64,000 nucleotides of DNA from Gammaproteobacteria bacterium AqS3 (lineage in GTDB: Bacteria; Pseudomonadota; Gammaproteobacteria; MEIF01; AqS3), in assembly GCA_001750645.1 (NCBI GenBank), contig MEIF01000006.1, forward strand, positions 1 to 64,000, written 5' to 3'. This document shows positions 52,134-53,761 of this stretch, one piece after another. The position numbers and the translations under genes are program-made. Position 1 is the first letter of the stretch, and each line of letters starts with the position of its first letter. The notes under the pieces are model-generated. The model saw nothing but the letters and a program-made list of their open reading frames with translations, was not told the DNA's origin and did not search any database.

Positions 52134-52379
52134 TTAAGCGGTTTGGCTTCGCGCAGTTGGGATGCGCTCTTTTAGGGGGGAGTCAGAGCAGAGCAGAGAA
52201 TTTGACCAGCCGGTCTTTCGGTCAGGGTTTGCCAAATGATCACGGAGCAATACGAGACACTGGCCGCAGCCCTCTCCCAAGCCGAAGCGCAGACGAAGAT
52301 CATTGGCCTCTGTGCAGCCCTCTTGGATGGCTTGATCGATCTCGCTAATACGCACACCCGTGCAGTTGCAGAAGAACAT
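52134..52379 (-). CDS. bfd: Bacterioferritin-associated ferredoxin (Bfd-like 2Fe-2S protein)
   Basis: The 81-residue protein begins MFFCNCTGVRISEIDQAI and has FGLGEGCGQC, giving the four Cys (4, 6, 38, 41) of the Bfd 2Fe-2S fold. Bfd reduces bacterioferritin to release stored iron. The last 22 residues are not family-like. A Fur-like site lies about 45 bases upstream (52422-52440) with TAAAAT between it and the gene, as expected for iron repression. No bacterioferritin gene is in the window. Confidence 0.8.
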   Translation of the reverse strand: MFFCNCTGVRISEIDQAIQEGCTEANDLRLRFGLGEGCGQCLVLLRDHLANPDRKTGWSNSLLCSDSPLKERIPTARSQTA

Positions 52380-52421: not shown

Positions 52422-52440
52422 AATGCGAATGGTTCTCATT
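52422..52440 (-). promoter_or_regulatory. Candidate Fur box upstream of bfd
   Basis: Read on the minus strand, AATGAGAACCATTCGCATT matches the 7-1-7 inverted pattern TGATAATnATTATCA at about eleven of fourteen positions. A -10-like TAAAAT (complement 52411-52416) follows toward bfd, so repressor binding would cover the promoter. Confidence 0.55.
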
Positions 52441-52540: not shown

Positions 52541-53761
52541 TCAGCGCCGGACTTCAACGACACTCAGCTGAAAATGCCTGGCGATATAAGTCGGGGTTAG
52601 GTCGCGACCGATGTCGGCGAATCCGAACAGGGCTCTGGGAAACTTCAGGGTCAGACTGTAGCTGCCATCGGGTTCAATCGGCCCGCCAGAATTACCTGTT
52701 CCAGCTGTGCCGCCGTCGGTTTCGGCGCGCAGCCGAAAGTTGGCCAGTCGGTATGAGCCCTTCCAGACGTATGAGACTTTCAGCTCGTGGGTGCTGATCA
52801 CGCTGGCGCGGTAAATCGTCAGCGCCCGACTGACAGCGCTGCGCTCATCATCCAGGTGCCTGGCCAGGCGAATTCGATCCTCCTTGTCGCGGGCGCTTTT
52901 CGCGTCTTCGAAAGTCTCCTCAATGCCGACTTTGCGAAACAGGTCATCGTCTTGGGGGACGCCGGCGGGCCGCCAATTGCGCGCATGTCTGCGCAACACG
53001 GTTTCGTAGTCGGGATTGCGCTGATTGGGCGAGTAGTAGCCGAGCAGATTCTGCCCCTGCTGCTGAAGCAGTTTCAGGCGGGCCGGGCTCACAGGATGCA
53101 ACTGCACAAGCGGCGACGATTCTTCGGGGGTCTGCCCGGACGACCACAGCGTGTGAGCGGAGCGAGGGTCGTATCCGGCCAAGGCGGTGTAGAGCTGCCC
53201 CATGATGTCCGCCTCCTGCTCCTGCTTGGGCGTGAATGAAATGGTTTGAAACGGCGCCCCTGATGTCGACTGGGCCAATTGCCGGGTCAGTTGATGCGCG
53301 TGGCGGATGTGCCCGCCGTGATTGGCAGCCAGATGTCCGAGAGCGTGGGCAAAGGCGGCTGCGACGGCATCATCCCTGAACTGCTCGACCAGACCGGAAT
53401 GCACGAACAGGTATGTCCCCCCGGTGGTGAACAGGCCGGGTTTGTCGTTTTGCAGCACGATGAGTTTCCAGTCTTCGGAGCGAAAGTGCGAGGCCGCCAG
53501 CACGCGCTGGAAAATGCGGCGGGCCTGGGCGACGGTGGCGCGGTTGGTCTGTCCCACAGCGCCCCGCAGGGCGAGCGCTCTGAGAACCTCGGCGGCCAGG
53601 GCATTGCCTGCGCGCGCACCGGGCTGGCGTTCAACTGCGCGATAGAGGGTTTCCAGCGGGCGCTCGGGGGATGCCAGGGCGCTGAAGTCGCGTTCGGGCG
53701 AAGTGTCGACGGCCGCACAGCCGGTGCATAAAAGCAGCACGCCCGACCACACTCGCACCAA
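52541..53761 (-). CDS. M48-family-like lipoprotein lacking the catalytic Glu
   Basis: The 406-residue protein has a lipoprotein signal (GVLLLCTGC) and an M48-like peptidase domain. The zinc helix reads AFAHALGHLAANH: HALGH at residues 139-143 replaces HExxH, with Ala (GCT, 53342-53344 on the complement) where the catalytic Glu belongs. The downstream Glu ligand remains in QEQEADIMG. Catalysis is therefore probably lost while zinc binding may persist. The C-terminal 180 residues hold no domain I know. It may be a chaperone-like relative of BepA/LoiP. The start is TTG 53761. Confidence 0.78.
   Translation of the reverse strand: MVRVWSGVLLLCTGCAAVDTSPERDFSALASPERPLETLYRAVERQPGARAGNALAAEVLRALALRGAVGQTNRATVAQARRIFQRVLAASHFRSEDWKLIVLQNDKPGLFTTGGTYLFVHSGLVEQFRDDAVAAAFAHALGHLAANHGGHIRHAHQLTRQLAQSTSGAPFQTISFTPKQEQEADIMGQLYTALAGYDPRSAHTLWSSGQTPEESSPLVQLHPVSPARLKLLQQQGQNLLGYYSPNQRNPDYETVLRRHARNWRPAGVPQDDDLFRKVGIEETFEDAKSARDKEDRIRLARHLDDERSAVSRALTIYRASVISTHELKVSYVWKGSYRLANFRLRAETDGGTAGTGNSGGPIEPDGSYSLTLKFPRALFGFADIGRDLTPTYIARHFQLSVVEVRR

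Follow-up and report, generated by a model that had tools for sequence, protein, structure and literature searches.

The glutamate of the HExxH motif acts in zincin peptidases as the general base that activates water. In the 64,000-nucleotide stretch of gammaproteobacterium AqS3 DNA analysed here (the window), a gene for an M48 homologue, P0001, carries HALGH at that position. The locus raises the question of whether P0001 is an M48-fold protein that holds zinc without cutting, a gene being lost, a protease of another kind, or an error in the sequence.

The gene and its altered motif

The M48 homologue was encoded by a 406-aa ORF at 52541-53761 on the minus strand, with a TTG start and, as an alternative start, GTG as the next codon. 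HALGH lay at window positions 53333-53347 of the minus strand (CAC GCT CTC GGA CAT), representing residues 139-143 with the zinc ligands H139 and H143, in the sequence context AAAFAHALGHLAANHGG. Ala140, at the catalytic Glu position, was encoded by GCT at 53342-53344 (minus strand), two bases off GAA and two off GAG. The alignment of HALGH with the subfamily of relatives described below was clean, with A138, H139, H143, A146 and H148 in register. A frameshift behind HALGH was ruled out, as Ala140 was a substitution inside this in-register alignment, and a true active site elsewhere in the protein was ruled out by the lack of a second HExxH in the 406 residues. A His-rich stretch was also observed at 53294-53347 (minus strand), where H151, H154 and H156 followed the conserved H148; the intact relatives were poorer in His after H148, L173 and L174 having one further His there.

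The catalytic-Glu column was read across 108 M48 rows, a panel recruited through similarity searches with P0001 and its relatives and so not a random M48 sample. ORFs of at least 120 aa were taken, identical ORFs were dropped, and the 108 rows represented 108 distinct cores (107 once contained fragments were removed). The paralogues L001-L003 from the same genome were inside the panel; L005 was outside it and was read separately. Glu occupied the column in 104 of the 108 rows, the other 4 being fragment rows without the column that were counted as gaps, and Ala occurred in the query alone. A smaller first panel yielded Glu in 81 of 85 rows, with 4 gaps. The His139 and His143 columns were likewise conserved in 104/108 rows (4 gaps each), and the Glu181 and His222 columns in 106/108 (2 gaps each). 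Because the query itself carries Ala, a bias against Ala in the panel was not expected. The Glu-to-Ala change is far outside the variation within this similarity-gathered panel. The sequence-only reading, which had reported HALGH instead of HExxH in an M48-like protein, the replacement of the catalytic Glu by Ala, and a GCT codon two bases from both Glu codons, was exact in these respects.

Metal site, fold and termini

On the combined evidence of profile, ligands with plug, and predicted fold, P0001 is a member of the M48 homology family. Pfam matched residues 78-233 (53063-53530, minus strand) to Peptidase_M48 (PF01435) with a score of 52.7 bits (cut-off 20.3; E 6e-14), and the closest solved structures by sequence were the M48 protein 3c37 and BepA. 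An AlphaFold2 model from a 5-row alignment reached a mean pLDDT of 59.8, a 3-row version being poorer (49.8). In ten-residue blocks, pLDDT was 71-95 at residues 71-140 and 181-210 and 41-66 at 141-180; around the motif, the mean was 93 at 131-140 and 66 at 141-150, and the modelled region just after the motif (residues 141-180) is uncertain. VIA-align placed the model closest to BepA (6ait_A; Z 18.0, 191 residues, rmsd 2.9), followed by 3c37_B (Z 16.0) and Ste24p (Z 8.3), a comparison that bears on the M48 core, with residues 271-406 barely covered. Pfam reported M48 alone up to E 1, with no TPR domain, and the NCBIfam models for BepA (18.1 bits against a cut-off of 570) and LoiP (16.5 bits against 365) fell far below their cut-offs.

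In the available excerpts of PMC7950410, zinc in BepA is held by H136, H140, E201 and the plug residue His246, and HPx4R is conserved across the M48 Pfam family. All of the zinc ligands known from BepA were present in P0001, as H139, H143, E181 and H222. The third ligand, E181, was identified from its panel column in E-Q-E-A-D together with the conserved D185 (residues 181-185; 53207-53221, minus strand). The H-P-x4-R active-site plug (residues 222-228; 53078-53098, minus strand), which provides the fourth zinc ligand in BepA according to the same excerpts, kept H222, P223 and R228 in the panel alignment. The earlier impression that the zinc ligands were kept thus extended to H139, H143, E181 of ExxAD and H222 of HPx4R, and Glu140 was the sole loss from the metal-site and catalytic set.

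The edge strand had also changed. In BepA, N105-A106-F107 form the substrate-binding edge strand, where Cys is tolerated, whereas A106P and F107P impair degradation and reduce the promotion of assembly (excerpts of PMC8423444). The corresponding columns N109-A110-F111 read G-L-F in P0001 (residues 109-111; 53429-53437, minus strand), with N and A gone, and a strand was still placed at 110-112 in the predicted model. As Cys is tolerated at the BepA positions, loss of the NAF residues alone is no proof of loss of the strand.

An outer-membrane lipoprotein had been proposed from the sequence, and this was plausible with one reservation. The lipobox-like L-C-T-G-C (53717-53731, minus strand) contained Cys15, which was invariant in the five intact full-length relatives and was followed by Ala at +2; however, the site has Cys at -3, which we take to be atypical and to miss the usual lipobox pattern. 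LoiP/YggG is an M48 lipoprotein, a type to which P0001 may belong; P0001 differs from it in its extra C-terminal part and its lack of Glu. This part, residues 261-406 (52544-52981, minus strand), was modelled at low confidence as a helix at 290-313 followed by five predicted beta strands, and here the AGEGGG segment of the relatives was missing. When the region after residue 260 was compared with L153, 5 of 1000 shuffles reached the score, and with L173, 775 of 1000; L153 compared with L173 gave 58 of 1000, indicating divergence even between intact members. Residues 300-406 gave 361 of 500 shuffles against L082 and 48 of 500 against L081. The subfamily profile match on P0001 ended at residue 257, and the C-terminal 168 residues returned only themselves from 369 class genomes at E 0.01.

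A sparse subfamily and its genome setting

P0001 belonged to a sparse gammaproteobacterial M48 subfamily, whose other full-length members were 412-424 aa long with an N-terminal lipobox-like Cys. Five were intact, namely L153, L173, L174, L082 (from a Thiogranum MAG) and L081 (from a Methylococcales symbiont of Hymedesmia). HE stood at the motif in all seven readable copies, which were these five, including the closest, L153, and the broken L037 and L062; the motif was HEIAH or HEMAH in the five and L037, and HEMVH in L062. No motif was found in the broken-copy loci L063-L066, L070, L076, L077 and L080, nor in L115. Because all seven readable copies have HE, the Ala is private to the lineage of the window; it was seen in one genome, which is the sole representative of its order in the comparison set. 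The sequence-only reading would have been refuted by orthologues with intact HExxH that imply a recent loss; the orthologue half of this holds, in seven of seven readable copies, while the loss itself may be recent or old.

Core identity of P0001 to six subfamily members was 30-37%, and the subfamily and P0001 both had a YY..N block following the core. The six aligned members have [NQ]AF and AGEGGG, whereas P0001 has HALGH, GLF and no AGEGGG. A five-member profile matched residues 68-257 at 143 bits. In the M48 tree, P0001 grouped with L082, L081, L037, L063 and L115 with support of 99/96, a grouping to be read with caution because of the length of the P0001 branch; this tree predates L153, L173 and L174, and a second tree covered the subfamily only.

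Searches with P0001 of 56 relatives and of 369 class genomes, which are overlapping sets, returned mostly generic M48 proteins. Among the 369 class genomes, from which L037 (genome G108) was recovered, a family-level score was reached only by the query's own genome and G108 (509 bits, next 134), with a partial match in G246. A single-protein search of genome contigs with P0001 returned no relative, whereas an alignment-based search returned two, L082 and L081. L153 was found in G792 at E 2.4e-34 (next best 3.7e-14 among 243 genomes), and L173 and L174 were found when 3 of 278 genomes, including G792, matched at E 1e-42. Among 185 relatives of the L082 genome, no further genome carried the subfamily, G530 being the same place as G108. 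Plasmid records held no match with P0001; with P0003, 225 plasmid records, 20 of them listed, gave partial M48 matches below 60% identity, none covering 80%. Phage records gave partial M48 matches only (10 records), and viral contigs gave no match with A3 or P0004 and two generic M48 matches with A6.

The same gene was stop-interrupted or split in several genomes of 1.0-1.5 Mb belonging to one family, forming a decay series (L037, L062-L066, L070, L076, L077 and L080, in G108, G370 and G374-G378). The locus L115 (G246:C2:1525395-1525709), a 240-aa open frame, matched the N-terminal part of the subfamily (profile positions 10-112) and had no HExxH region; it is possibly a rearranged remnant. 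The L173 and L174 genomes, which belong to one family, shared a gene order of coaD-like, M48 lipoprotein, TetR-like and RsmD-like genes, labels that we assigned by resemblance; the surroundings of the window copy differed.

The host genome is a 3.16 Mb draft in 234 contigs. The search for an active M48 paralogue that the sequence-only reading had proposed was fruitful, as four other M48 genes had an intact HExxH: L001 (HEVSH), L002 (HEFAH), L003 (HEFAH) and L005 (HELGH). We take L001 to be HtpX-like by resemblance, and L002, which has a long BepA-like C-terminal part, to be BepA-like by length and resemblance. The M48 gene was flanked by a BFD-like gene (Fer2_BFD; 52134-52379, minus strand) and by a DUF1289 gene, taken from 53845, on the opposite strand; further neighbours encoded PP-loop and metallophosphatase proteins. 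None of these neighbours hints at the function of the M48 protein, and no conserved partner gene is known. Upstream of the BFD-like gene, a Fur-box-like sequence, AATGAGAACCATTCGCATT, was seen at 52422-52440 (minus strand). The resemblance to the Fur consensus suggests that the BFD-like ferredoxin gene may be under iron control.

A candidate pseudoprotease and its alternatives

The reading that we favoured, to which we give an even chance, is that P0001 is a pseudoprotease, an exported, probably lipid-anchored, zinc-holding and non-cutting protein of the M48 fold. E. coli BepA (YfgC) provides the closest comparison, as it shares the M48 fold, the four zinc ligands and HPx4R, and its E137Q mutant is the laboratory parallel of the Glu missing in P0001; P0001 differs from BepA in having no detected TPR, no catalytic Glu and a lipobox-like N-terminus. 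By this likeness, P0001 would be expected to hold zinc, its plug in the docked position, without cutting. In the excerpts available, BepA E137Q is protease-dead and retains substrate crosslinking (PMC7950410, PMC8423444), is dominant-negative and does not complement (PMC7950410), and promotes LptD maturation weakly, yet crosslinks to LptD (PMC8423444). Taken with zincin chemistry, the E137Q mutant suggests that P0001 is probably non-proteolytic. As E137Q is dominant-negative and weak in assembly, an M48 protein without Glu is not automatically a chaperone. The chaperone-like role first proposed for P0001 is the weakest part of the sequence-only reading, given also the lack of a TPR domain, the lost N and A of NAF, and the genome's own BepA-like gene.

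Set against the pseudoprotease reading are the occurrence of Ala in one genome only, the loss of 28 of 66 subfamily invariants, and the breakage of the same gene in symbiont genomes. The lost invariants and the broken copies also argue for a once-active M48 lipoprotease gene under relaxed selection, in the course of being lost, with E140A as one tolerated hit and function absent or fading; we consider this a serious though less probable alternative. Of the 23 panel-core columns with a conservation of 85% or more, P0001 kept 18, the lowest of 82 rows, tied with three HE-bearing rows. The changed columns were N109G, A110L, G116T, E140A and R178P, of which the R178 position is Thr in L037, L081 and L082. 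Where the intact subfamily members showed no variation (66 columns), it kept 38, and in a leave-one-out comparison each of the five intact members kept 71 of 76-86, against 43 of 86 for P0001 compared with four members. The AGEGGG segment, invariant in the subfamily, was absent, the family is sparse, and GC3 (0.732) lay near the bottom of the range found in six neighbour genes (0.696-0.895). The terminal branch measured 4.48 against medians of 0.5 (M48 tree) and 0.49 (subfamily tree), about nine times the median, although estimates for such long branches are approximate and the alignment of the C-terminal part is poor. Fast evolution across the genome is a candidate cause of the long branch: the BepA-like gene of the same genome is also on a long branch (2.3), whereas its FolD branch was ordinary (1.08 against a median of 0.95), in a tree that is weakly supported and whose group is possibly a different FolD type.

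Relaxed selection is countered by the intact ORF, the complete set of zinc ligands with the plug, and core invariants that were better kept than the flanks. GC by codon position (0.671/0.489/0.732) was coding-like, and the 406 codons contained no stops, whereas neutral drift ought to have disrupted the frame over a branch of this length. These features suggest that the frame was under selection during most of the branch, although the loss of Glu itself is not dated thereby. In addition, a Glu codon requires two changes to become GCT, the simplest route being E-to-A and one silent substitution, arguing against a very fresh hit; GCT is rare in the neighbourhood, accounting for 16 of the 205 Ala codons counted in five neighbour genes. 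The retained ligands, HPx4R and fold, together with the three non-conserved His residues (H151, H154 and H156) shortly past the motif helix, would also suit a P0001 that is still a protease, with another residue or a substrate group as general base or with slow cleavage. This is improbable, as BepA E137Q is protease-dead in the excerpts of PMC7950410 and PMC8423444, the edge-strand N and A have changed as well, and no acidic residue replaces Glu140. A sequencing or assembly error is very improbable: the genome is a draft of many contigs and Ala was seen in one sequence only, but either Glu codon is two bases away, the frame is intact, the divergence spans the whole protein beyond codon 140, and the gene lies away from the ends of its 65 kb contig.

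Under the favoured pseudoprotease reading, the zinc ion would still be held through H139, H143, E181 and the plug His222. With Ala in place of the general-base Glu, water activation for peptide hydrolysis would be impossible, and without turnover the HPx4R plug would probably stay docked on the zinc. The M48 domain could then be a rigid module that binds a partner or an unfolded polypeptide in the envelope. We infer that P0001 binds zinc, has lost proteolysis, is exported and, though non-catalytic, still has a function. More tentatively, P0001 may be a zinc-loaded envelope pseudoprotease that arose from an HExxH lipoprotein subfamily through Glu loss and edge-strand remodelling and that acts as a scaffold or a regulator of the genome's intact M48 enzymes.

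ADAM7 (HQLGH) and ADAM29 (HHLGH) are metallo-pseudopeptidases with the His ligands kept and Glu replaced (excerpts of PMC11266112); like P0001 they retain HxxxH with the general base replaced, but they belong to another family, M12. That 2024 review of metallo-pseudopeptidases lists members of M1, M12, M13, M14, M16, M24 and M41, and M48 occurs 0 times in its main text as available (PMC11266112). No natural bacterial M48 protein without Glu was recognised in the open-access literature among the matches listed, and the available parts of PMC8621943 and PMC7804941, which combine M48 with pseudoprotease or non-peptidase topics, named none. This is weak evidence that a natural Glu-less M48 protein is novel.

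The claim is modest because the Ala is found in one genome and gene decay may be under way. In the literature, as far as the excerpts extend, BepA-type M48 proteins mix cutting with assembly help, and laboratory mutants have been used to tell the two apart. A naturally occurring M48 protein with an intact zinc site and plug and no general base would provide a ready test of the non-cutting role of the fold.
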